64,000 bases of DNA, taken from assembly GCF_000243235.1 (NCBI RefSeq), contig NZ_JH594605.1, positions 314,660 through 378,659 on the forward strand. Direction: 5' to 3'. The position numbers and the translations under genes are program-made. The notes beneath the pieces were generated by a model that worked only from the letters and a program-made list of their open reading frames with translations, was not told where the DNA came from and made no database searches. The stretch is from Gillisia limnaea DSM 15749. Lineage in GTDB: Bacteria > Bacteroidota > Bacteroidia > Flavobacteriales > Flavobacteriaceae. Positions 29,635 through 40,068 of the stretch are shown one piece after another. Numbering within the stretch: position 1 is the stretch's first letter; every line of letters begins with the position of its first letter.

Positions 29635-30429
29635 AAAGCTTTTATTACTTATACAGTATACCTGCGGGACTTTTATTCTTCGTTTTTAAGCACATAATAG
29701 TCATGTTTTATATGGCACCATCCTAAATCTTGTAAGGCAAAATTTTAGTTAAGCGTTGATCAAGAATTCTATAGTTTTTAGTCCCTTGATATTCTTTTGA
29801 AGGATTATATTTTCGCGTCAAATGATTTTGTTGAATCGTTTACACTTCTCATTGAAAGATACTGAGCGATAGATCGCTCCTTTATATACTCCTAATTGGC
29901 CACAATATTGAAACCTTAATTTTACTGCTAAGACTTCCGGATATTAACTTTCCGCATATGGTTATAATCCAAAAAAAAGCCTATAACCTGTTAATTTTAT
30001 GCTATTAATTTAATTTTAATTCACAGATCTTTTCCTTTAGTAAAATTGTATCTCCCACCTCCCAGAACAGTTTACTCTCAATTTTTTGCGAAGAATTAAA
30101 TTTCATAAATATAATGACAGAAGGTATTCAATGAAAACGGCATTCTTAGTAAACCAAAAGTGTAAATAATGATTTTTAATCTGTACCTACTTTGGAGAAG
30201 TTTCCCGAAATATTGAAAAAACCTGGTTCTTTTTCAAAATCTATAAACCTAATATTCAATTTGATACGCAGAATAAACTACTGATAAATATCATTGTTAA
30301 TAATCTTGAATTATCTTAATTTTATTCTGTACAATAGTTATTGGATAAAAATTGCTTCGAAACCCAATCTTGTATAATCTCCCCATTAAGAATTTATAGT
30401 AATTTATTAATAACTAAATATTTATAATC
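29635..30429 (+). other. Long AT-rich non-coding region
   Basis: About 0.8 kb without a convincing gene, between dgkA and the stress island. It holds a perfect dyad GAGCGAT-AG-ATCGCTC (29864-29879) and, at its end, the Crp/Fnr-type promoter of the PepSY-like gene (30282-30324). A 33-codon minus-strand frame at 30005-30106 was considered too weak to call. Possibly a decayed gene region or an unrecognised RNA. Confidence 0.4.
30282..30324 (+). promoter_or_regulatory. Crp/Fnr-type box plus -7 element, PepSY-like gene
   Basis: Dyad TGAT-AAAT-ATCA (30282-30293), 23 bases, then TAATTTTA (30317-30324). No TTG -33 element. Same geometry as five other promoters in the island; leader about 100 bases. 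Confidence 0.6.
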
Positions 30430-30927
30430 ATGAAAAGGATCTTACTTGGTTTATTTATTTTTGGTTTGACCACCCAAGCCTACGCTCAGGTAACAGAGTT
30501 ACCTGAGATTAAAATTGTAGCCGTAAACTACAAGTATCTTGATGCTGCTGGAGAAGAAGATGTGGCAGAACCGGTGAAATTATTACAACGGGAAGCAGCA
30601 ACTTTCAATTTGAAAAATTCAGAATATTACCAGGATGATTATGACACTTATTTCATTTCGTTTTTCATTCCTCAAGGTAAAATCCTTGCCTCTTATGATA
30701 GAGATGGTAAATTATTAAGAACTGCCGAAAAATTTAAGGACATAGCACTCCCAAAAGCAGTTTCTACAGCCGTTGCAAAAAGATTTCCTGGATGGAGCGT
30801 TTCTAAGGATGTTTATTTGGTAAGTTATCATGAAGCCAAAGGAGCCTCTAAAACATACAAACTCTTACTGGAAAACGGAGATAAGCGAATGAGGATCAAA
30901 ACAGACGAAAAAGGAAATTTCCTTTAG
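30430..30927 (+). CDS. Exported PepSY-like domain protein
   Basis: 165 residues with a signal peptide (1-19, ending AYAQ). The C-terminal half (ISFFIPQGKILASYDRDGKLLRTAEKFKDIALPKAVSTAVAKRFPGWSVSK) has the repeated strand-strand-helix pattern of PepSY-like periplasmic proteins. Such proteins may inhibit or bind proteases or peptidoglycan, but no function can be assigned. First gene of the stress island; its upstream region has a Crp/Fnr-type box and it ends at a strong hairpin. Confidence 0.7.
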   Translation: MKRILLGLFIFGLTTQAYAQVTELPEIKIVAVNYKYLDAAGEEDVAEPVKLLQREAATFNLKNSEYYQDDYDTYFISFFIPQGKILASYDRDGKLLRTAEKFKDIALPKAVSTAVAKRFPGWSVSKDVYLVSYHEAKGASKTYKLLLENGDKRMRIKTDEKGNFL

Positions 30928-30984
30928 TCCTTTGTATACTTATAATTATTAAAAAAGGCCAAACTTTAAAATTTTGGTTGGTAA

Positions 30985-31013
30985 AGAGGCTGTCTAAAAA
31001 GGCGGTCTCTTTC
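30985..31013 (+). terminator. Terminator hairpin, copy 1 of an inverted pair
   Basis: 26-base hairpin at 30985-31010 (10-bp stem with G-U pairs, loop TAAAAA) followed by T-rich sequence. Read on the other strand, 40612-40637 is the same 26-mer with one difference. Confidence 0.65.
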
Positions 31014-31103
31014 TTGAATTCCAACAACTTACTACTTTTAAATTGTCTAAAAACATCATTGAAGATTTGGTTTCATTTTATGCAAAAAATAAAATTAAAC
31101 CTC

Positions 31104-31146
31104 TGATATATATCATCTTATGATTTCCGGTTTTACACTAATTTCA
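31104..31146 (+). promoter_or_regulatory. Crp/Fnr-type box plus -7 element, hsp20
   Basis: Perfect dyad TGAT-ATAT-ATCA (31104-31115), 23 bases, TAATTTCA (31139-31146). Leader about 37 bases. Confidence 0.65.
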
Positions 31147-31187
31147 GTATGTAATATAAAAATTATTAATTTTTAAAACCTAAAATC

Positions 31188-31673
31188 ATGTCATTAGTTA
31201 AATCAAGCAAACGCCGTTCTCCTATTGCTGGGGAATCACTTATGTCTCAAGATCCTTTTTTTTCAGATCTGATGGATACCCGCAGAGGCATCTTTAATTT
31301 AAACCGGATCTTTAATGGAGATTTTGAAAATGATCTAAATTTGATCCCTGCGCTTAATGTAAAGGACAACAAAAAAAATTACGAGGTTCTATTAGCCGTG
31401 CCCGGACTAACCAAGAATGACTTTAATATCACCGTAGATGATGGTATTTTGACTATTTCTGCTGAAAAAGAGGCAAAAACAGAAGAAGAAAAAGAAGGAT
31501 TTGTAAGGAAGGAATTTAGTTACAATTCATTTTCTAGGTCAATGATTCTACCAGATTCAGTTGACGAGGATAAAGATATTAAAGCCCAATATCAGGATGG
31601 TGTCCTAAAGTTGACCCTTCACAAAAAAGAAGGAGCTAAGCCAAAAAGTCCTAAAAAAGTGAATGTGTCTTAA
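31188..31673 (+). CDS. Hsp20/alpha-crystallin small heat shock protein
   Basis: 161 residues: N-terminal arm to about 55, alpha-crystallin domain about 56-145 (IPALNVKDNKKNYEVLLAVPGL ... DGVLKLTLHKK) and a short basic tail. It is an ATP-independent holdase. The canonical C-terminal IXI motif is not visible; the tail reads SPKKVNVS, with VNV in the equivalent place. Monocistronic: own Crp/Fnr-type promoter and a 14-bp terminator. Confidence 0.93.
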   Translation: MSLVKSSKRRSPIAGESLMSQDPFFSDLMDTRRGIFNLNRIFNGDFENDLNLIPALNVKDNKKNYEVLLAVPGLTKNDFNITVDDGILTISAEKEAKTEEEKEGFVRKEFSYNSFSRSMILPDSVDEDKDIKAQYQDGVLKLTLHKKEGAKPKSPKKVNVS

Positions 31674-31678
31674 ATAAG

Positions 31679-31720
31679 AAAGGTGATTGAAAAGAAATAA
31701 TTTCAATCACCTTTTTATTT
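31679..31720 (+). terminator. Intrinsic terminator after hsp20
   Basis: Perfect 14-bp stem AAAGGTGATTGAAA (31679-31692) with TTTCAATCACCTTT (31701-31714), followed by T-rich sequence. It can also serve the convergent WG-repeat gene. Confidence 0.85.
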
Positions 31721-31728
31721 TTTGTTGA

Positions 31729-32358
31729 TTATATTTTATGAATCTCCCATTTTTTTTGGGGACTTTTTACAGCAATTAAATTCTCACTCACCCATCGCGC
31801 TTCAATTCGTGGTGCTTCCCTTAATTTCTCTCTGGAGACCGCTACCGGAAAAGGACCGGCTAGATATTGCTTCACTTCTCCTTCCCTGTCTATTAAAACA
31901 ACATCGTACTTATAGGATTTAATTGTGATATCCAAAAGATCATTCCTTCCTAAAGATTTCTCTTCTATTTTTAAAGCCAATGCTTGTCCGTTTTTGAAGT
32001 TGGAAACATTTAGGAATTCCGGTTCAATAACTGTCTTCCCCGAAGAATCTATAAATCCATAATACGGAATTTCGTCGGTAACCTTTTTAATTATAATCCT
32101 GCCATCATACATGCCCGGGAATTGCTGAGAAGCCACCCCAACATCGGTTTTAGAAGAGGTCTTTTCATTATGAATTAAATCATTCCTGAAATTAACTGTT
32201 AATTCTCCCTGAGAATTTAAAAACCCCCATTTATTATTTTTTAAAACCGGGATGTGACCTTCATTTGCCGGACCAATAAATTCGAGATCCTGAATTACCT
32301 GTGAAAAAGTGAGTAACGGAATCATAAGAAAAACCGTTACCAGCAGTACTAATTTCAT
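31729..32358 (-). CDS. Exported WG-repeat protein
   Basis: 209 residues with a signal peptide (1-19, ending TFSQ). Two WG (KWG) repeats are visible: NNKWGFLNSQGELTVN and YYGFIDSSGKTVIEPEF, about 60 residues apart. WG-repeat proteins are common in Bacteroidota, are thought to bind proteins or ligands, and have no catalytic motif. Divergent from the first universal stress gene; a Crp/Fnr-type box lies at exactly the island's standard distance on its strand. Confidence 0.75.
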   Translation of the reverse strand: MKLVLLVTVFLMIPLLTFSQVIQDLEFIGPANEGHIPVLKNNKWGFLNSQGELTVNFRNDLIHNEKTSSKTDVGVASQQFPGMYDGRIIIKKVTDEIPYYGFIDSSGKTVIEPEFLNVSNFKNGQALALKIEEKSLGRNDLLDITIKSYKYDVVLIDREGEVKQYLAGPFPVAVSREKLREAPRIEARWVSENLIAVKSPQKKWEIHKI

Positions 32359-32384
32359 TTTTATTAAATTTTAATATTCATTAA

Positions 32385-32427
32385 GAAAATTACGGTTCTT
32401 TCTTTTAATAGAAAATGATAAACATCA
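32385..32427 (-). promoter_or_regulatory. Crp/Fnr-type box plus -7 element, WG-repeat gene
   Basis: Minus strand: dyad TGAT-GTTT-ATCA (32416-32427), 23 bases, TAATTTTC (32385-32392). Leader about 20 bases to ATG 32358. Facing the other way the spacing to a -7 box is poorer, so this box is assigned to the minus strand. Confidence 0.55.
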
Positions 32428-32490
32428 TACTTTCATACACGTGAAGTTTCGCGTTTGCCTTATTTAACTAGTTCAAAGCCCGCGCTAAAC

Positions 32491-32533
32491 TGATATTGGT
32501 CATAGTTTTAAGGGTCATTTCGCAATAACTTTA
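32491..32533 (+). promoter_or_regulatory. Crp/Fnr-type box plus -7 element, first usp gene
   Basis: TGAT-ATTG-GTCA (32491-32502), 23 bases, TAACTTTA (32526-32533). Leader about 15 bases to ATG 32552. Confidence 0.6.
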
Positions 32534-32551
32534 TTGTAAACAAATTTTATA

Positions 32552-33409
32552 ATGATGAGAAAGATAGTGGTTCCAACAGATTTTTCGAAAAACGCATTCA
32601 ATGCCCTCAAATATGCCGTAGAGTTATTTAAATATGAAAAATGTGAAATTTTCATATTACACGCTTTTGCCGATGAGGTTTACGACGACATGTCTATAAA
32701 TAACCAGGCTTTATTAGAGGACTTAAAAGACAGCGTTCAGGTAAAATCGGAAAAAGAAATTGCCCAGATCATTTTAGATATCAAAGAATATTCTCCAAAT
32801 CCTCACCATCATTTTAAATCAATTTCTGAATTTGGTTCGCTTGTAGATGAGATCAACGAAGTAGTGAACGAAGAAAATGCCGATATCATTATAATGGGAA
32901 CCAGGGGTAAAACAAATTATCAGCATATAACCTTTGGAACCAATACCCTTCAGGTAATTAAATATGTGCATTGTCCGGTTCTTTCGATCCCGGAAAATTA
33001 TGAATTTAAAACACCCAAAAACTTCCTCTTCCCTACAAATTATATGATCCCCTATCAAAAAAGGGAATTAAAACTGGTAGCTGATTTATCCAGCGCCTAC
33101 CAGGCTATTATTCATCTATTATACATTTCTGAATTTCCTGTAGAGAGTTTCCGGCAAAAGGACAACCAATTATTCCTAAAGGAACAATTCTATGAAACCG
33201 GTTTTAAATTTCATAGGGGCGAAGAAACGGATAAGATAAAAGCCATTAATAAAAACATTGGCTCATTGAACATAGATCTTTTGATTATGGTCAATTCCCG
33301 ATACACTTATTTAGAAACTATTTTATCAGGATCTACCATCGACATTATTGGCTTACAGCCCAAAATCCCATTTTTAATACTTCAGAATTTCTATCGGCAA
33401 ATAACTTAA
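32552..33409 (+). CDS. Universal stress protein, tandem-domain, copy 1
   Basis: 285 residues, two UspA domains (about 1-145 and 155-280). The first has the ATP-binding pattern G-x2-G-x9-G-(S/T): GTRGKTNYQHITFGTN. The second lacks this loop, so it is probably a structural or regulatory half. It starts ATGATG; either codon can serve. It leads a run of three closely spaced usp genes (gaps 51 and 2 bases) under a Crp/Fnr-type promoter. Confidence 0.9.
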   Translation: MMRKIVVPTDFSKNAFNALKYAVELFKYEKCEIFILHAFADEVYDDMSINNQALLEDLKDSVQVKSEKEIAQIILDIKEYSPNPHHHFKSISEFGSLVDEINEVVNEENADIIIMGTRGKTNYQHITFGTNTLQVIKYVHCPVLSIPENYEFKTPKNFLFPTNYMIPYQKRELKLVADLSSAYQAIIHLLYISEFPVESFRQKDNQLFLKEQFYETGFKFHRGEETDKIKAINKNIGSLNIDLLIMVNSRYTYLETILSGSTIDIIGLQPKIPFLILQNFYRQIT

Positions 33410-33460
33410 ATCTCACAAAACCGTTGGATTGATTTTAAGATTTATTTAAAAAAATAAAAG

Positions 33461-34312
33461 ATGAAAAAAATACTTTTACCTACCGATTTTTCCGATAATG
33501 CGTTTAATGCCATAAAATACGCTGTACAACTTTTTGAGAACGAAGCGTGCATTTTCTACCTTTTAAACACCTATACGCCGGTGCTTTACGACACCGAACA
33601 TATTCTTTATAGCCCTTCTCAATTAAGTCTTGACGAAATTTATAAGAATAATTCCCTAAAAGGATTGAAGAGAGTTGAAAAAAAGTTGAAGCGAGAATTT
33701 CATAATCCCAAACATACTATAGAGAAGGTTTCGTCCTTTAATCTACTTAATGAAGAGATTCTGGAACAGGTGAAAGAAAAAGAAATAGACCTTGTAATAA
33801 TGGGTACTCAAGGCGCAACTGGTGCCGAAGAAATCTTGTTTGGAACCCACACCGTTCATGCCATAAAAAAAACCAAAGTGCCTCTTCTGGCTATCCCTTC
33901 CGATTTTGAGTTCGTTCAGCCAAAAAACATTCTTTTCCCTACAGATTATGATATTAATTATACCACTAAACATTTACAACTTCTGAAAGAGCTGGCTTAT
34001 ACTTATAACTTCGAGATACATATTCTACATGTGATTTTTGGGCGACAGCTTGAAGAGAAGCAGGAATACTCTAAAAAAATACTGGTTGACTATTTTAAAG
34101 AAACACGCAATCAATTTTATAGTATTGAAAAAAATACCGTTACAGAAGGGATCTACGATTTTCAGAAAGAGAATTCCATCGATCTGTTAGCAATGATTAG
34201 CAACAAACATTCATTTTTTGAAAACCTGCTTTTCAGGCCGGTAATAAATGACATTGGATTTCACGTAAAGATTCCGTTTTTGGTAATTCCTTCTGGAAAA
34301 TATAATTCTTAA
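33461..34312 (+). CDS. Universal stress protein, tandem-domain, copy 2
   Basis: 283 residues. ATP loop in domain 1: GTQGATGAEEILFGTH. Domain 2 is degenerate but has the NKHSFFENLLF motif shared with copies 3 and 4. No promoter box was seen in the 51-base gap from copy 1, so it is probably co-transcribed. Ends two bases before copy 3. Confidence 0.9.
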   Translation: MKKILLPTDFSDNAFNAIKYAVQLFENEACIFYLLNTYTPVLYDTEHILYSPSQLSLDEIYKNNSLKGLKRVEKKLKREFHNPKHTIEKVSSFNLLNEEILEQVKEKEIDLVIMGTQGATGAEEILFGTHTVHAIKKTKVPLLAIPSDFEFVQPKNILFPTDYDINYTTKHLQLLKELAYTYNFEIHILHVIFGRQLEEKQEYSKKILVDYFKETRNQFYSIEKNTVTEGIYDFQKENSIDLLAMISNKHSFFENLLFRPVINDIGFHVKIPFLVIPSGKYNS

Positions 34313-34314
34313 CC

Positions 34315-35163
34315 ATGAAAAACATCCTTCTTCCTACAGATTTTTCAGAAAACGCCTGGAATTCGACGCTTTACGCGATAAATTTGTATAAAGAGGAATC
34401 TTGCCGTTTTTTTTTAATGACTTCATATAATGTAAATGGTTATTATGAAAACAGTATGATGGATCCCGTTCCGGCAAAAGAGGAATCGATAAAAGTTAAA
34501 GCAAATTCAGAAGAAAAGCTAAACCGACTTTGTGAAATTATTAAAGAACGCTCTTCAAATCCTAAGCATACATTCAAATGTGTTGCCTTAAATAAAACCT
34601 TAATAGATTCTATAAAACATGAGCTCAACCAGCATGCATTTGATATTATTCTCATAGGCACACAGGGATCCACGGGAGCTTATGAAGTAATTTTTGGCAG
34701 TAATACGATTCAAATATTGAATGAGATAAAAAACTGCCCTATTCTTGCAGTTCCATCCAATGTATATTTTAAGGTCCTAAAAGAGATCGTATTGGCCACT
34801 AGTTATAAAATCGAACATTCCAGTGATGATCTTAAATACCTTATTCAACTTGCCAAACAAAATAATTCTGCGATTCGGATACTTCACATAGAAGAATCCG
34901 GGGGGATTAGTATCTCTCAAAAACATAACAAAAACCATCTGGAGTCTTGTTTAAAAGAGATTGAACATAGCGCTCATTCTTTGGCTCACGTAAGTATTCC
35001 TATAGGAATTTATTGTTTTACCGAAAGCAGAGGAAGTGATATGATCGTATTTATTAATAAAAAGCACAATTTTTTAGAAAACTTACTTTTTAAGCCTCTC
35101 TATAAAGATTTAGGGAATTATTCCAGGATTCCCTTACTCGTTTTACACCGTTCCAATGAATAA
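34315..35163 (+). CDS. Universal stress protein, tandem-domain, copy 3
   Basis: 282 residues. ATP loop in domain 1: GTQGSTGAYEVIFGSN. Domain 2 ends with NKKHNFLENLLFKPLYKDLG, aligned with the same region of copies 2 and 4. Start codon two bases after the stop of copy 2. Confidence 0.9.
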   Translation: MKNILLPTDFSENAWNSTLYAINLYKEESCRFFLMTSYNVNGYYENSMMDPVPAKEESIKVKANSEEKLNRLCEIIKERSSNPKHTFKCVALNKTLIDSIKHELNQHAFDIILIGTQGSTGAYEVIFGSNTIQILNEIKNCPILAVPSNVYFKVLKEIVLATSYKIEHSSDDLKYLIQLAKQNNSAIRILHIEESGGISISQKHNKNHLESCLKEIEHSAHSLAHVSIPIGIYCFTESRGSDMIVFINKKHNFLENLLFKPLYKDLGNYSRIPLLVLHRSNE

Positions 35164-35186
35164 GCTTTAAAAACATTAAAGAGATG

Positions 35187-35229
35187 TGACTGTTGTCATA
35201 TTCCCCGTAAGATCAACAAATTACCTTTA
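35187..35229 (+). promoter_or_regulatory. Crp/Fnr-type box plus -7 element, fourth usp gene
   Basis: TGAC-TGTT-GTCA (35187-35198; the dyad extends imperfectly to 35184-35201), 23 bases, TACCTTTA (35222-35229). Leader about 17 bases. Confidence 0.6.
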
Positions 35230-35250
35230 TACTACTAAACTAATAAAGTG

Positions 35251-36108
35251 ATGAGAAAGAATATATTAATACCAACCGATTTTTCCAAAAATTCGTGGAA
35301 CGCTTTAAATTATGCTTTGAGTTTATTTAAAGATGACAAATGTACGTTCTACCTGTTAAATGCATTTCAACTATATTATTTCACAACAGACAGCCTTATT
35401 GTTCCTGAGCCGGGAGAACCTAATTATGAAAAAGCCAAAGAAGCATCTGAGATTGGGCTTGAAAAAACAATAGATGGAATCACATCCAGAGGAGGTACCG
35501 AAGAACATAGATTTGAAATTATTTCTACCTATAATTCTGTTTTGGAAGCCGTAAGGACTGTTATCGATAAAAATGATATAGAATTAGTGATAATGGGTAC
35601 CAAAGGTGAAAATGACCCTACAAGTAAACTGTATGGTAGTAGTGCAGTGGATGTTATGGAGAAAGTATATGATTGTCCAGTTATCGTCATTCCGGAAAAC
35701 GTGAGCTATCAGGAGGAAAAGAGAAAAGAAGTTGTATTTGCTACCAATTTTAAAACTGCTTACAAGCGTCGAGAATTAGAGAACCTGGTTGATATCGCAA
35801 AAAAAATGAAGGCAGCAATTAGGGTGCTACATATTCAGGAAGTAGATAAATTAAGCAAGGAGCAGGGGAAAAATAAAGAGGACCTGCAGGAATATTTGGG
35901 TGATGTGGTTCACACATTTCATACATTAACCGATATTAAAGTAGCCCCCGGGATTCATTCCTTTATAGAAAGCAGAGATAGTGATCTCCTGGCACTTATC
36001 AATAAAAAGCATAGTTTTTTAAACAGCATATTTACAAAATCCCTGGTAAAAGAAATTGGATATAAACCTCAGGTCCCTGTTCTGGTGATGCATAATATAA
36101 AAGATTAG
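35251..36108 (+). CDS. Universal stress protein, tandem-domain, copy 4
   Basis: 285 residues from ATG 35251 (a GTG directly upstream at 35248 is also in frame). ATP loop: GTKGENDPTSKLYGSS. Domain 2 has NKKHSFLNSIFTKSLVKEIG. Own Crp/Fnr-type promoter. The following ATP-cone gene has no recognisable promoter of this type and may belong to the same transcript. Confidence 0.9.
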   Translation: MRKNILIPTDFSKNSWNALNYALSLFKDDKCTFYLLNAFQLYYFTTDSLIVPEPGEPNYEKAKEASEIGLEKTIDGITSRGGTEEHRFEIISTYNSVLEAVRTVIDKNDIELVIMGTKGENDPTSKLYGSSAVDVMEKVYDCPVIVIPENVSYQEEKRKEVVFATNFKTAYKRRELENLVDIAKKMKAAIRVLHIQEVDKLSKEQGKNKEDLQEYLGDVVHTFHTLTDIKVAPGIHSFIESRDSDLLALINKKHSFLNSIFTKSLVKEIGYKPQVPVLVMHNIKD

Positions 36109-36251
36109 AGTAACCAACTAAGTAAATCCCTCAATCAGGTTTGCACGGGACCATTCCTCAATCTATTAAACATGAAGAAATAAAAATATTATTCAGGCAT
36201 TTTGAGGATAAATTAAAAATTCAAATTAGCAGAATTCAAATATTATAAAAT

Positions 36252-37094
36252 ATGACCGTCCGGAATCTCCATATTATAAAAGCTTCAGGGGAAAAAGATG
36301 TTTTTTCTGTTGAAAAAGTCAAGGCTTCCCTAAGAAAGTCTGGAGCAGATGAGGAAGTTATAAGTGATATACTTAGCAATTTGGAGGATGAATTATATGA
36401 CGGGATTTCTACAAAGGAGATCTATAACCGGGCTTTCAATCTTTTGAAGAAAAGGAACCGGTCATTTGCCTCCCGGTATAAGTTGAAAAATGCTATTTAT
36501 GAACTGGGTCCCACAGGATTTCCTTTTGAAAAATTCATTGCTTCAATTTTAAAACACAGCGGATTTAAAGTTGAGGTTGGAAAAATTGTACAGGGAATTT
36601 GTGTTACCCATGAACTGGATGTTATCGCCAGAAAAGATAAGGAGAAAAATTTATTTGAATGTAAGTTTCATACCGAACCAGGCAAAGCCTGTGATGTAAA
36701 AATTCCACTATATATTCACAGCAGATTTCGGGACATTCAAAATTTTTTGGATAAAAACCATCCTGGCACCCCGGCCTTTAAAGGCTGGCTGGTCACAAAT
36801 ACAAGATTTACTGAAGATGCCCGGAAATATGGAAAATGTGTAGGCCTGAATTTGTTGAGCTGGGATTTCCCCAAAGGAAATGCTTTGAAAGACAGGATAG
36901 ATCATACGGGCTTGTATCCTATTACAGTTTCTACCTTGCTTTCTGCCAGAGAGAAGCAATTCCTCTTGAGCAGAGATGTAGTATTGTGTAAAGAATTGAT
37001 AGATGATAAATTTTACCTGGATCATTTAGGTATATCCGAAGGAAGAAAATCCAGGATTTTAAAAGAGATGGAGATGCTTTGTAAGGTATCCTAA
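36252..37094 (+). CDS. ATP-cone domain fused to PD-(D/E)XK nuclease-like domain
   Basis: 280 residues. Residues about 5-85 form an ATP-cone (IIKASGEKDVFSVEKVKASLRKSGADEEVI ... YNRAFNLLKKRNRSFASRYKLKNAI), the nucleotide-sensing domain of ribonucleotide reductases and NrdR. Residues about 90-205 look like an Mrr-type restriction endonuclease fold with D123 in ELDVIA and the E-x-K signature E136-C-K138. The C-terminal 70 residues are helical and unassigned. A nucleotide-gated nuclease is inference. It lies between usp4 and the MBL-fold gene, 143 and 109 bases away. Confidence 0.75.
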   Translation: MTVRNLHIIKASGEKDVFSVEKVKASLRKSGADEEVISDILSNLEDELYDGISTKEIYNRAFNLLKKRNRSFASRYKLKNAIYELGPTGFPFEKFIASILKHSGFKVEVGKIVQGICVTHELDVIARKDKEKNLFECKFHTEPGKACDVKIPLYIHSRFRDIQNFLDKNHPGTPAFKGWLVTNTRFTEDARKYGKCVGLNLLSWDFPKGNALKDRIDHTGLYPITVSTLLSAREKQFLLSRDVVLCKELIDDKFYLDHLGISEGRKSRILKEMEMLCKVS

Positions 37095-37203
37095 AACCAA
37101 TTCGGAGCCAAGTTCTCCTGGAGAATAAAAACAAGACATCTCGTTAATTATTTTGCAGAAAGTGGGTAAATCGACCCCTCTTGTGAGATTAAAATATTCA
37201 GTT

Positions 37204-38577
37204 ATGAGTTTAGAAATAAAAATTCACTTTTTAGGAGCCTCAGGCACGGTTACAGGGTCCAAATTTATTTTGGAAACGCCCGGATTCAACATTATGGTAG
37301 ACTGTGGAATGTTCCAGGGATTAAAGGAATTGAGAAACCTAAACTGGGAACCATTCCCATTCCCACCAGATAAAATTGATATAATCCTGCTCACTCATGG
37401 ACATTTAGACCACTCCGGTTATTTACCAAGGTTGGTAGCACAAGGTTTCAAGGGAAAAATAATGGGGACTGCCCCTAGTCTGGCTATCGCTTCAATTATT
37501 CTTTTAGACAGCGCCAAAATCCAGGAAGAACAGGCCCAACAAGCAAATGAAGAAGGCTATTCTATCCACACACCGGCTTTACCGCTTTATTCCTTAGAGG
37601 ATGCAGAAAATGCGATTCGACTATTTAAATCTGTAGAGCCAGGTAAATGGTCTAACATTCATCCTGATATTAAATTCAGACTGGAAAAAAACGGACATAT
37701 TATTGGAGCAACCTATATAGAGTTAGATATCCTTGGAAAAATCTTTCTGTTCTCGGGAGATATAGGACAGGAAAAAGATCAATTACTGGATCCTCCAAAA
37801 CCTCCTGAATGGGGCGATTATATATTCCTGGAAAGCACGTATGGCAATAGATTACATCCTGAAGATAATTCTGATGAAATTCTAACAAATGCTATTAATG
37901 AGACCATAAATAATAACTCAATTTTAATAATCCCAAGTTTTGCGGTAGAAAGGCTTCAAACCTTAATGCATAAATTGTGGCAACTTTACAATAAAAATAA
38001 AATTCCAAAGATTCCCATTTTTATCGATAGCCCAATGGGAAACAAAGTATTTGAGGTGTTTGAACGTTTTCCTTCCTGGCATAAACTCAATAAGGATGAC
38101 CTGGCAGCAATGAAAAATCATTTTAACGTTATAACATCCTATAAAGATACCTGGAAAACAATAGACGATAAAAGAGCTAAAGCTGTAATTGCAGGAAGCG
38201 GAATGGTTAGTGGCGGAAGGGTTCTTACGTATCTAAGGTATTTTATAGATAAACCTGAAACAACCGTTTTACTGGTGGGATTTCAGGCAGAAGGAACCCG
38301 GGGAAGGCAACTTCTTGAAGGAAACCAGGAGATCAAAATATTTGGAAAATACTGTGAGGTGAATGCTAAAATAAAAACGATTGAAAGTCTCTCTGCCCAT
38401 GCAGATCAGAAAGGTCTAATCGATTGGTTGGGAAAAATAAAAAACATCCCGGAAAAGGTGTTTTTGATCCATGGAGAGCCCACTTCCCTGGATGCTTTAA
38501 GAGTGAAAATCAAAGATACCTACCATTGGCAGGTACATATTCCACATTTAAAAGAAATCATAAACATTAAGCTTTAA
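37204..38577 (+). CDS. MBL-fold metallohydrolase with beta-CASP and RNA-specificity domains
   Basis: 457 residues, RNase J/CPSF73-like. Metal motif LTHGHLDHSG in the N-terminal metallo-beta-lactamase part, then a beta-CASP region (SFAVERLQTLMHKLW, DSPMGNKVFEVF), AGSGMVSGGR, and the C-terminal SAHADQKGLIDWL and FLIHGEP motifs. Predicted zinc-dependent RNase or phosphodiesterase. The upstream frame is open to TTG 37153, but MSLEIKIHFLGASGTVTGS is the usual start. In many bacteria such genes sit next to universal stress and anaerobic genes. Confidence 0.88.
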   Translation: MSLEIKIHFLGASGTVTGSKFILETPGFNIMVDCGMFQGLKELRNLNWEPFPFPPDKIDIILLTHGHLDHSGYLPRLVAQGFKGKIMGTAPSLAIASIILLDSAKIQEEQAQQANEEGYSIHTPALPLYSLEDAENAIRLFKSVEPGKWSNIHPDIKFRLEKNGHIIGATYIELDILGKIFLFSGDIGQEKDQLLDPPKPPEWGDYIFLESTYGNRLHPEDNSDEILTNAINETINNNSILIIPSFAVERLQTLMHKLWQLYNKNKIPKIPIFIDSPMGNKVFEVFERFPSWHKLNKDDLAAMKNHFNVITSYKDTWKTIDDKRAKAVIAGSGMVSGGRVLTYLRYFIDKPETTVLLVGFQAEGTRGRQLLEGNQEIKIFGKYCEVNAKIKTIESLSAHADQKGLIDWLGKIKNIPEKVFLIHGEPTSLDALRVKIKDTYHWQVHIPHLKEIINIKL

Positions 38578-38592
38578 AATTTTTTTAAATCC

Positions 38593-38635
38593 TGATAATT
38601 ATCATTTAAATTTTCGCTTTAAAAATTTAATTTTA
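38593..38635 (+). promoter_or_regulatory. Crp/Fnr-type box plus -7 element, helical protein operon
   Basis: Perfect dyad TGAT-AATT-ATCA (38593-38604), 23 bases, TAATTTTA (38628-38635). Leader about 20 bases. Confidence 0.65.
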
Positions 38636-38659: not shown

Positions 38660-39079
38660 ATGGTTGTATCAGAAAAAGATAATTCATTTTATAGTGAAAA
38701 GCGGCTCAAAAAAAACCAATTGGAACTATTACATTGGAAAAATCTGTTAACATATAATTCTGAAGAAATAAGTTTCCTCATGCTCTTTTTAAATGTAGAA
38801 ATTTTCAAACCCGGTATTCCCAATTTATTTGAAAATTTAAAGAAATACTTAAACAGCGTGGAAAATATAAAATCCCAGAATTTCCGATTTTTTAAACCGG
38901 TAGAAAAAAAATTGAAAATGCTGAAGGACGCCATAGAGAATGATAAGGATTCCGAAGAAAATTTCATTTCAGATTTTGAGAACTTAAGAAACGATATTGA
39001 GAATTATTTTGAAAAATTCTACGATCTCAAGCTTGAAATTTTCCATTATACCGGGAATCTTTTAAAACAAAACGAATAA
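38660..39079 (+). CDS. Uncharacterised helical protein, paralogue 1 of 3
   Basis: 139 residues, no signal peptide, strongly predicted helical/coiled-coil, Lys/Glu-rich. Pattern shared with the two following genes: an L-x-W-K-x-x-L start, E-x-x-FL-x-x-(F/L)L-x-x-E-x-F-x-P, a central K/L-rich helix and a terminal FYDLKLEIFHYTGNLLK. No family recognised. Leads a probable three-gene operon under a Crp/Fnr-type promoter. Confidence 0.7.
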   Translation: MVVSEKDNSFYSEKRLKKNQLELLHWKNLLTYNSEEISFLMLFLNVEIFKPGIPNLFENLKKYLNSVENIKSQNFRFFKPVEKKLKMLKDAIENDKDSEENFISDFENLRNDIENYFEKFYDLKLEIFHYTGNLLKQNE

Positions 39080-39113: not shown

Positions 39114-39569
39114 ATGAAAAACATTATGGATACACCAAAACAAAATTTTAGGTACGTGGAATGGAAAAGTTCTGACGAAATGCATTATTCCTGTTTGCAA
39201 TGGATATCCGAGTTAAACTTTATAAAAGATGAACAGATCTTCTTTCAGGATATGTTAAAAGAATACACCGTGCCTATTCTGGAATCTCACTTGCTGGAAG
39301 AAGCAAAAACTCTGATTTTCAAATTAACCGATTCTGAAAAGCAAGTTGAAAATTTAATGAAAGAAACAACAAAACATCGAAACGGTTTACAAGTATTGGT
39401 AGATGGTATTGACCAACCGAACCAGGAAAAGGAATATAGGGAAGAGCACAGGAGTTTATTAAAACAAGTAAATAATTTTTCCATTCAGTATCAATCTCTA
39501 AAAAAGGATATTTTTAATACGGTTTCCAGGGCTTTGAAACAGCAAAAACAAAAAAAACTATTGAGTTGA
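39114..39569 (+). CDS. Uncharacterised helical protein, paralogue 2 of 3
   Basis: 151 residues, the most divergent of the three: CLQWISELNFIKDEQIFFQDMLKEYTVPIL at the start and YQSLKKDIFNTVSRALKQQKQKK at the end align with the others in spacing. Soluble, helical and highly charged. It begins 34 bases after paralogue 1. Confidence 0.7.
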   Translation: MKNIMDTPKQNFRYVEWKSSDEMHYSCLQWISELNFIKDEQIFFQDMLKEYTVPILESHLLEEAKTLIFKLTDSEKQVENLMKETTKHRNGLQVLVDGIDQPNQEKEYREEHRSLLKQVNNFSIQYQSLKKDIFNTVSRALKQQKQKKLLS

Positions 39570-39648: not shown

Positions 39649-40068
39649 ATGGCAACAATGAGCTTTTCCCAAAAATCTGCGAATGAAAAAGACGTTGAAG
39701 AACTCGAAAACGACACCCTAAATTGGGATAAAACTCTGCAAACCCTTACGGATGAACTGTTGTTTTTAAAACATCTCCTAGCCTCAGAAGTTTTTCAACC
39801 CATTAACCCGGATACTTCCGAGAAGGTAAAATCTTACACCGAAGATCTTGAAGATCTAAAAACCGAAAAGATTGAAGTACAACTCGCATTAAGAAATCAT
39901 AAAAATGACCTCAATGGAATGTTGGAATGTGAAGATATAAGTTGTGAAATTTTTTATAAAACCCAGCATCAGGAACTTCTTAACAGCTTAAAGGAACTTT
40001 TGGCGAACTTCAAAGACTTAAAACTTAAGATTTTTAACTTTAGCATTCCATTTCTTAAAAAAAATTGA
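39649..40068 (+). CDS. Uncharacterised helical protein, paralogue 3 of 3
   Basis: 139 residues: LNWDKTLQTLTDELLFLKHLLASEVFQPINP near the start and FKDLKLKIFNFSIPFLKKN at the end closely match paralogue 1. No membrane segment or export signal. Probably a coiled-coil bundle; function unknown. Confidence 0.7.
   Translation: MATMSFSQKSANEKDVEELENDTLNWDKTLQTLTDELLFLKHLLASEVFQPINPDTSEKVKSYTEDLEDLKTEKIEVQLALRNHKNDLNGMLECEDISCEIFYKTQHQELLNSLKELLANFKDLKLKIFNFSIPFLKKN

Follow-up and report, generated by a model that had tools for sequence, protein, structure and literature searches.

The window analysed here, a 64,000-nucleotide stretch of the Gillisia limnaea DSM 15749 genome (contig NZ_JH594605.1, positions 314,660 to 378,659 of the forward strand), carries an island of stress genes in which six promoters share one exact layout, a TGAY-N4-RTCA dyad followed after 23 bases by a TAnnTTY box, and this layout recurs throughout the genome and in relatives. 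We consider it likely that a genome-wide low-oxygen regulon is activated from these promoters, which would be of class II, and that their reader is a response regulator in which a receiver is fused to an FNR-like module (REC-FNR) and which is paired with a predicted heme-PAS histidine kinase.

All six sites lie where the original prediction had put them, and a search for the full pattern (hereafter a strict site) returned this same set and nothing else in the window; 0.04 matches were expected, and none of 100 shuffles reached six. Since seven dyads occur against 4.01 expected, the dyad alone is unremarkable. The spacing is as rigid as had been claimed: the box stands at 23 in 6 of the 14 oriented window dyads, while any other spacing from 5 to 59 occurs at most once. 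The seventh dyad, at 33282, lies within usp1 and has no -7 box at spacing 23. On the forward strand, and scored with a weight matrix trained solely on 181 sites from relatives, the sites precede a PepSY-like gene (30282..30324; dyad 30282-30293, -7 box 30317-30324; score 30.8), the Hsp20 gene (31104..31146; dyad 31104-31115, -7 box 31139-31146; 21.0), usp1-usp2-usp3 (32491..32533; dyad 32491-32502, -7 box 32526-32533; 32.0), usp4 (35187..35229; dyad 35187-35198, -7 box 35222-35229; 22.2) and the gene for helical protein 1 (38593..38635; dyad 38593-38604, -7 box 38628-38635; 29.7). The sixth, on the reverse strand, precedes a WG-repeat gene (32385..32427; dyad 32416-32427, -7 box 32385-32392; 22.0). 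Each site has an open reading frame (ORF) behind it, and the predicted +1 falls 14-101 bases from the start codon (for usp4, from its ATG). In Flavobacterium psychrophilum the sigma-A box TAnnTTTG spans -12 to -5, according to an excerpt of PMC9723704. When the box of the present sites is set in this register, its first T at -12, the dyad centre comes to -41.5, the class II position; relative to a start predicted in this way, the dyad resembling the FNR core TGAT-N4-ATCA is centred as originally proposed.

The 3.97-Mb genome (G000, contigs C1 and C2) holds 231 dyads against 103 for the reversed control, and for the flanked form MTGAYNNNNRTCAT the counts are 52 + 44 against 15 + 18. A repeat, CTGACTTCAATCAT or CTGACTTTAATCAT, found five times in two groups at G000:C2:338991-354224 with steps of about 410 bases within a group, inflates the dyad count. 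When 347 kb of the genome, window included, was scanned with the matrix, 25 sites scored at least 21.0, 30 at least 16.7 and 34 above 12, and a Markov-1 null of equal length gave none above 12; this null flatters the dyad part of the score because most of the stretches were picked for holding a flanked dyad, the spacing and box being unselected. Within this fetched DNA the box stands at 23 in 23 of 186 oriented dyads, the other spacings from 0 to 59 having a mean of 1.5 and a maximum of 9 (at spacing 0), and at 23 in 0 of 20 reversed dyads. Two further places, C1:266099 and C1:313097, were covered as small search loci and had no site. About 3.6 Mb lies outside the matrix scan, so the site count is a lower bound; a search with model R1, defined below, gave 22 matches at E ≤0.1 in the whole genome. 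The regulon is genome-wide, with about 25-30 promoters so far. The original prediction had expected a genome scan to exceed its null, which it does well beyond the window and with spacing 23 standing out; it had also drawn the regulon as that of the island, and of this the site shared by six island promoters stands and the confinement to the island does not.

The layout was followed into relatives in the best 80 of 557 loci from named genomes that encode a relative of the receiver-Crp/Fnr fusion, flanks of at most 10 kb included. Of 846 oriented dyads in these loci, 274 have the box at spacing 23, 64 at spacing 0 and 19 at spacing 24; the remaining spacings have at most 16 each, the mean of all except 23 is 7.4, and none of 108 reversed dyads has the box at 23. 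Spacing 23 thus dominates in related genera, as it should if the promoter is conserved there. The peak at spacing 0 (64 in the relatives, 9 in the own genome) is probably accounted for by the T-rich flank after the dyad, and for this reason a second promoter type was rejected as its cause. At least one site occurs in 78 of the 80 loci (none in L055 and L056), and in 73 a site lies 1-200 bases behind the fusion stop, the next ORF matching a Usp reference in 73 of 73. Pooling own and related sites at less than 70% identity left 192 non-redundant sites (no more than 12 from the own genome), with the consensus AnM-TGAY-WWWT-RTCA-T-W-TTTT and TAnTTTTR. They are asymmetric, with T after RTCA in 98% and A or C before TGAY in 94%. 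A division into two site classes by C or A before TGAY was rejected, as usp sites (55 C, 31 A, with 7 having G or T set aside) did not differ from cco/hemN sites (28 C, 17 A; Fisher p 0.85).

Of 320 sites scoring at least 20 in the 80 loci, 307 have an ORF behind them; 238 of these ORFs resemble a reference protein (E 1e-4) and 69 resemble none. The 238 comprise Usp (120), CcoS (30), a 128-aa protein without Pfam match (25), a small membrane protein (21), FixI-like ATPase (12), HemN-like protein (9), WG-repeat protein (7), helical proteins 2 and 3 together (4), Hsp20 (3), PepSY (1) and others (6), with none for helical protein 1. Every kind of window target thus has relatives with the promoter, although these are few for Hsp20, PepSY and the helical proteins. 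Downstream of sites in the own genome are further Usp genes and genes for an NhaA antiporter, OsmC, a fasciclin-domain protein, a cytochrome c, an outer-membrane barrel, NrfH (TIGR03153) and CcoS (TIGR00847), the last two over their NCBIfam cut-offs. Weaker or imperfect sites precede genes for a FixI-like P-type ATPase, the copper nitrite reductase NirK (TIGR02376, over cut-off), a YceI protein, an alcohol dehydrogenase outside the window (score 18.2) and a duplicated ArsR protein. At 4 of the 34 places there was no ORF behind by the rule used, namely two in L024 (30.1 and 22.3) and two weak ones. The target set reads as low-oxygen respiration plus stress protection. The low-oxygen signal originally suggested gains support from the nrfH and ccoS sites, from the weaker FixI-like ATPase and nirK sites, and from the FixL/DosP-like kinase described below. 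The two ArsR-family genes lie in L133 (G000:C2:3314676 and 3323204); their protein sequences and weak sites are identical, and they therefore belong to a duplicated segment.

In the own genome, HTH_Crp_2 matches six proteins above its cut-off, plus a short seventh that falls below it. Response regulators of 347-348 aa account for two of the six, each consisting of a receiver with its Asp and Lys, a cNMP-binding-like domain and HTH_Crp_2. The gene of the first fusion, on contig C2, overlaps that of a 416-aa PAS histidine kinase, with which it shares an operon, and has a strict site and a usp gene behind it. The second (L024:10193-11239, on G000:C2) sits on a long branch and has three strict sites and one with TAnnTTA in its surrounding 20 kb; no kinase ORF was noticed beside it. 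Together, the 40 kb surrounding both genes contain six sites, of which five are strict and one has TAnnTTA. Five residues, namely Asp and Lys of the receiver and E, I and R of the recognition helix, are invariant across 82 fusion sequences (82/82). The best named match of the fusion is from Gillisia lutea (78%). We found no report of a receiver-Crp/Fnr response regulator in Bacteroidota in the open-licence PubMed Central literature judged by titles and abstract starts; an excerpt of PMC8510549 treats a Crp/Fnr homologue of a Flavobacteriales bin as MalR-like. In one genome the fusion appears split over two adjacent ORFs, one for the receiver and one for the Crp portion, and a model match lies directly behind them (G054:C1:1599632-1600661).

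The partner kinase is probably an oxygen sensor acting through a PAS heme. Its PAS domain matches 15 PDB sequences at E <1e-3 (best E 8.7e-15), which are named DosP, FixL, heme PAS sensor or YddU (another name for DosP) apart from one FixL chimera and one multi-sensor kinase, and it aligns with the heme-ligand histidine of DosP/FixL-type PAS domains; we take the aligned histidine to be the heme ligand. Across 79 kinases, our own included, this histidine and the phospho-acceptor histidine are each present in 79, and the Arg in 72, among them our own. As in FixL, HisKA and HATPase come after the PAS with its heme His and Arg. In 78 of the 80 loci the fusion gene has a kinase ORF in front of it, and the two exceptions, L029 and L037, start close before the fusion gene. 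There is a minor, though real, chance that the signal is instead redox, NO, light or metabolite state, perhaps sensed by a heme-free PAS, and that the regulon is one of general energy stress. The similarity to known heme PAS domains is moderate, and Usp, Hsp20, OsmC and NhaA are general stress genes. Against this, 13 of the 14 PDB sequences at E <1e-10 are named DosP, FixL, heme PAS or YddU (the other being the multi-sensor kinase), the heme His is invariant, and nrfH and ccoS are among the targets.

Within the Crp/Fnr family, the most likely reader of the sites, judged from sequence features, is the receiver-Crp/Fnr fusion pair rather than a plain Crp/Fnr protein. The comparison was made with P0001 from a Flavobacterium-like genome, a protein of about 228 aa with an N-terminal CxxC and an FNR-type helix; its best match among NCBIfam models is Fnr, at 81 bits and below the cut-off of 228, so that it is named by similarity and is predicted to be FNR-like. 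In an alignment with P0001, the recognition-helix E and R are retained solely in the two fusions among the six proteins (E-S-L-I-R in the fusions, E-S-C-I-R in P0001); the other four have Q/S, A/R, V/R and A/S at these places. We take these residues to be those that read TGA in FNR and CRP. Tree building places the fusion Crp modules together with three FNR-like proteins, apart from the four other paralogues; long branches meet at this grouping, and the program flags such joins as possibly false. Alternatively, one of the four ordinary proteins (L018, L019, L020, L021) might read the sites, with the fusions merely among its targets. All four carry HTH_Crp_2 over the cut-off, and Crp/Fnr proteins often share related half-sites. 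We nevertheless think this improbable, as none of the four has both E and R in its helix, their 3-kb loci hold no strict site while both fusion loci hold sites, and sites occur in every family genome that has the fusion only. The activator originally proposed was a Crp/Fnr-family protein; of the readings considered, a Crp/Fnr-type activator at -41.5 has the best support, and the plain protein gives way to the fusion as the likely form.

The association between regulator and sites was counted in 119 genomes of the family, representing 118 genera. Model R1, a 48-position model with fixed spacing, was trained on sites lying no more than 10 kb from a fusion gene, and its matches at E ≤0.03 were counted. 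Regulators were called at <1e-60 for the fusion and 1e-36 for the FNR-like protein (in the class-wide sample below, <1e-70 and about 3e-37). Genomes absent from the match tables were counted as zero, and searches of more than 40 genomes used Infernal's stricter filters. Matches of any number occur in 107 of the 119 genomes. The fusion only was found in 27 genomes (median 12, range 6-28, so at least 6 in 27 of 27), the FNR-like protein only in 45 (median 6, range 0-22), both in 33 (median 18, range 5-34) and neither in 14 (median 0). Eleven of these last 14 have no match; the exceptions are G203 (1), which has a more distant FNR relative with 32% identity to P0001, G294 (2) and G306 (9). Per-genome dyad counts against the reversed pattern were dropped as a test, because this control depends on composition: the fusion-free G017 gives 52 against 1.

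The FNR-like protein itself lies beside the same architecture in three of four fusion-free family stretches (L167, L169 and L170, not L168), from genomes to which we give the inferred label Flavobacterium-like (G062, G125, G175, G196). In these three stretches the sites lie at genes for a FixI-like ATPase, FixS/CcoS or a HemN-like radical SAM protein, or at a cbb3 oxidase operon. An excerpt of PMC9723704 reports that F. psychrophilum raises its cbb3 oxidase and heme synthesis genes when oxygen is limiting, and these are the gene kinds that carry the sites in the Flavobacterium-like stretches. In the G. limnaea genome no one-piece protein of the P0001 type matched at 1e-36 (best 5.5e-23), and the two proteins with an FNR-type helix carry a receiver, not an N-terminal CxxC. 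G284, a genome of the same genus, is likewise of the fusion-only kind.

Several observations weigh against the fusion as reader of a low-oxygen promoter set. Since this layout is apparently recognised by the FNR-like protein in Flavobacterium-like genomes, the fusion cannot be identified from the motif by itself. Counts in fusion genomes are perhaps favoured, the training sites of R1 having come from the neighbourhood of fusions, and the genome tests ignore phylogeny. G306 has 9 matches, with good sites at usp and other genes (L189, L190), and no FNR-like or fusion gene was found in its four stretches and two search loci, which cover its HTH_Crp proteins in part; the assembly has 130 contigs, and a missing gene is therefore possible. 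Among 15 other dyad loci the strict pattern turns up once, in L012, with a matrix score of just 8.6. The boxes at the nirK (TTTTTTTG) and FixI-like ATPase (CACATTTG) sites are imperfect. Finally, the link is weaker in a class-wide sample of 197 genomes, in which 25 of the 64 fusion-only genomes have no model match (median 1). In that sample the FNR-like protein only was found in 44 genomes (median 3, 7 with none), both in 32 (median 6, all with matches) and neither in 57 (median 0, 33 with none). Base composition and drift of the motif may lie behind this result, which also allows that distant fusions read other sites.

Position alone does not distinguish activation from repression, and the dyads could in principle be repressor sites at which a Crp/Fnr-type protein at -41.5 shuts the promoters. 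We regard this as very improbable. Activation agrees with the exact class II distance and with the types of gene targeted, and also with the -33 region, in which the original prediction saw no TTG box: this holds for most sites and not for all, the -35..-29 segment being T-rich and containing TTG in 26 of the 192 non-redundant sites. In addition, the site-bearing cbb3 genes of the Flavobacterium-like genomes belong to a kind that rises under oxygen limitation in F. psychrophilum (excerpt of PMC9723704). That AT-rich intergenic DNA yields such dyads and boxes by chance, which the unenriched window dyad, the AT-rich model and five model matches in a 0.5-Mb genome with neither regulator (G024) might suggest, is refuted for practical purposes by six sites at spacing 23 against 0.04 expected and by 274 of 846 against a mean of 7.4 in the relatives, and 11 of the 14 neither-regulator family genomes have no match.

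In the mechanism we favour, loss of O2 from the PAS heme would turn the kinase on, and phosphoryl transfer to the receiver Asp would activate the fused FNR-like module. A Crp/Fnr-type dimer would then sit on TGAY-N4-RTCA at -41.5, beside the sigma factor on TAnnTTTG, and recruit polymerase in place of a good -33 element, so turning on Usp, Hsp20, ribonuclease-like and anaerobic-respiration genes. The fusion would stand in for the one-piece FNR-like protein of Flavobacterium.

E. coli FNR activates class II promoters with a TGAT-N4-ATCA core centred at -41.5, and the present promoters resemble these in core, position, and cbb3 and nitrite reductase targets. They differ in having the sigma-A box TAnnTTTG rather than TATAAT and a T after the right half-site (98%), and the predicted reader differs from one-piece FNR in being a receiver fusion without the N-terminal CxxC of P0001. 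The system is also like FixL-FixJ-FixK of rhizobia and Burkholderia in combining a heme-PAS kinase (here predicted), a response regulator and a Crp/Fnr-type output on respiration and stress genes. FixJ has a LuxR/NarL-type output; because the output domain here is Crp-type (HTH_Crp_2), the pair is not FixLJ. Receiver and Crp/Fnr module form one chain here whereas FixJ makes FixK, which is a separate protein, so one transcription step would drop out relative to FixJ-FixK.

Usp and Hsp20 genes share a promoter type here, and in our best reading the programme would be one of the lxa/DosR-like hypoxia type. The DosR DNA-binding domain is NarL-type, unlike the Crp/Fnr-type module here. As described in an excerpt of PMC5069765, DosR/DevR of Mycobacterium and OsdR of Streptomyces are systems in which heme kinases and a response regulator control Usp and heat-shock genes on oxygen loss; the G. 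limnaea kinase, predicted to bind heme, and its response regulator would stand over the same two gene kinds. The low-oxygen lxa locus of Burkholderia has six Usp genes and genes for a heat-shock protein, an MBL-family protein and a zinc alcohol dehydrogenase, and its table likewise includes a DUF1488 protein (excerpt of PMC6127331). The window has four Usp genes, Hsp20 and an MBL protein, and the weak-site alcohol dehydrogenase gene lies elsewhere in the genome. It differs from lxa in phylum and promoter type, and the regulator proposed there is Anr/FixK-like (same excerpt).

The island itself comprises, on the forward strand, genes for a PepSY-like exported protein (30430..30927; Pfam match below cut-off), the small heat-shock protein Hsp20 (31188..31673) and the universal stress proteins usp1 (32552..33409), usp2 (33461..34312), usp3 (34315..35163) and usp4 (35248..36108), with the WG-repeat gene (31729..32358) on the reverse strand. 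Two forward-strand genes have no site of their own, and for them the activation of the whole island in the original prediction stays conjectural. One, encoding a protein with an ATP-cone and an Mrr-like endonuclease domain (36252..37094), adjoins the Usp genes and perhaps belongs to the usp4 unit. The other (37153..38577) encodes an MBL/beta-CASP/RMMBL hydrolase, an RNA-processing type enzyme within the stress island, whose best NCBIfam model is type VII Cas14 (378 bits, below the cut-off of 800), followed by archaeal aCPSF1 (261 bits, below the cut-off of 580). Three small proteins follow in a row: helical protein 1 (38660..39079, forward strand; weak DUF1488 match, below cut-off), hel2 (39114-39569) and hel3 (39649-40068), the term helical being that of the original prediction.

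Taken together, the data lead us to favour, by a modest degree of confidence, a replacement of the regulator with the promoter kept, in which the same -41.5 sites across Flavobacteriaceae are served by a one-piece FNR-like protein and by a kinase-driven REC-FNR fusion. What is unusual is a one-chain receiver-FNR reader on an FNR-type promoter set, together with this apparent exchange of regulator. If true, the FixL-FixJ-FixK chain would be condensed to two proteins, and a DosR- or lxa-like Usp/Hsp20 hypoxia programme would be added from a third phylum, there run through another kind of DNA-binding module. In 27 of the 119 family genomes the regulon would depend on the fusion alone; 33 have both regulators, and there sites are more numerous. 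A regulator, a sensor and a regulon would be assigned to a promoter class present in most of the Flavobacteriaceae sampled (107/119), and the family would offer a tangible example of sensors being exchanged while the DNA code stays constant, a natural series for how a regulon changes its sensor and not its promoters.

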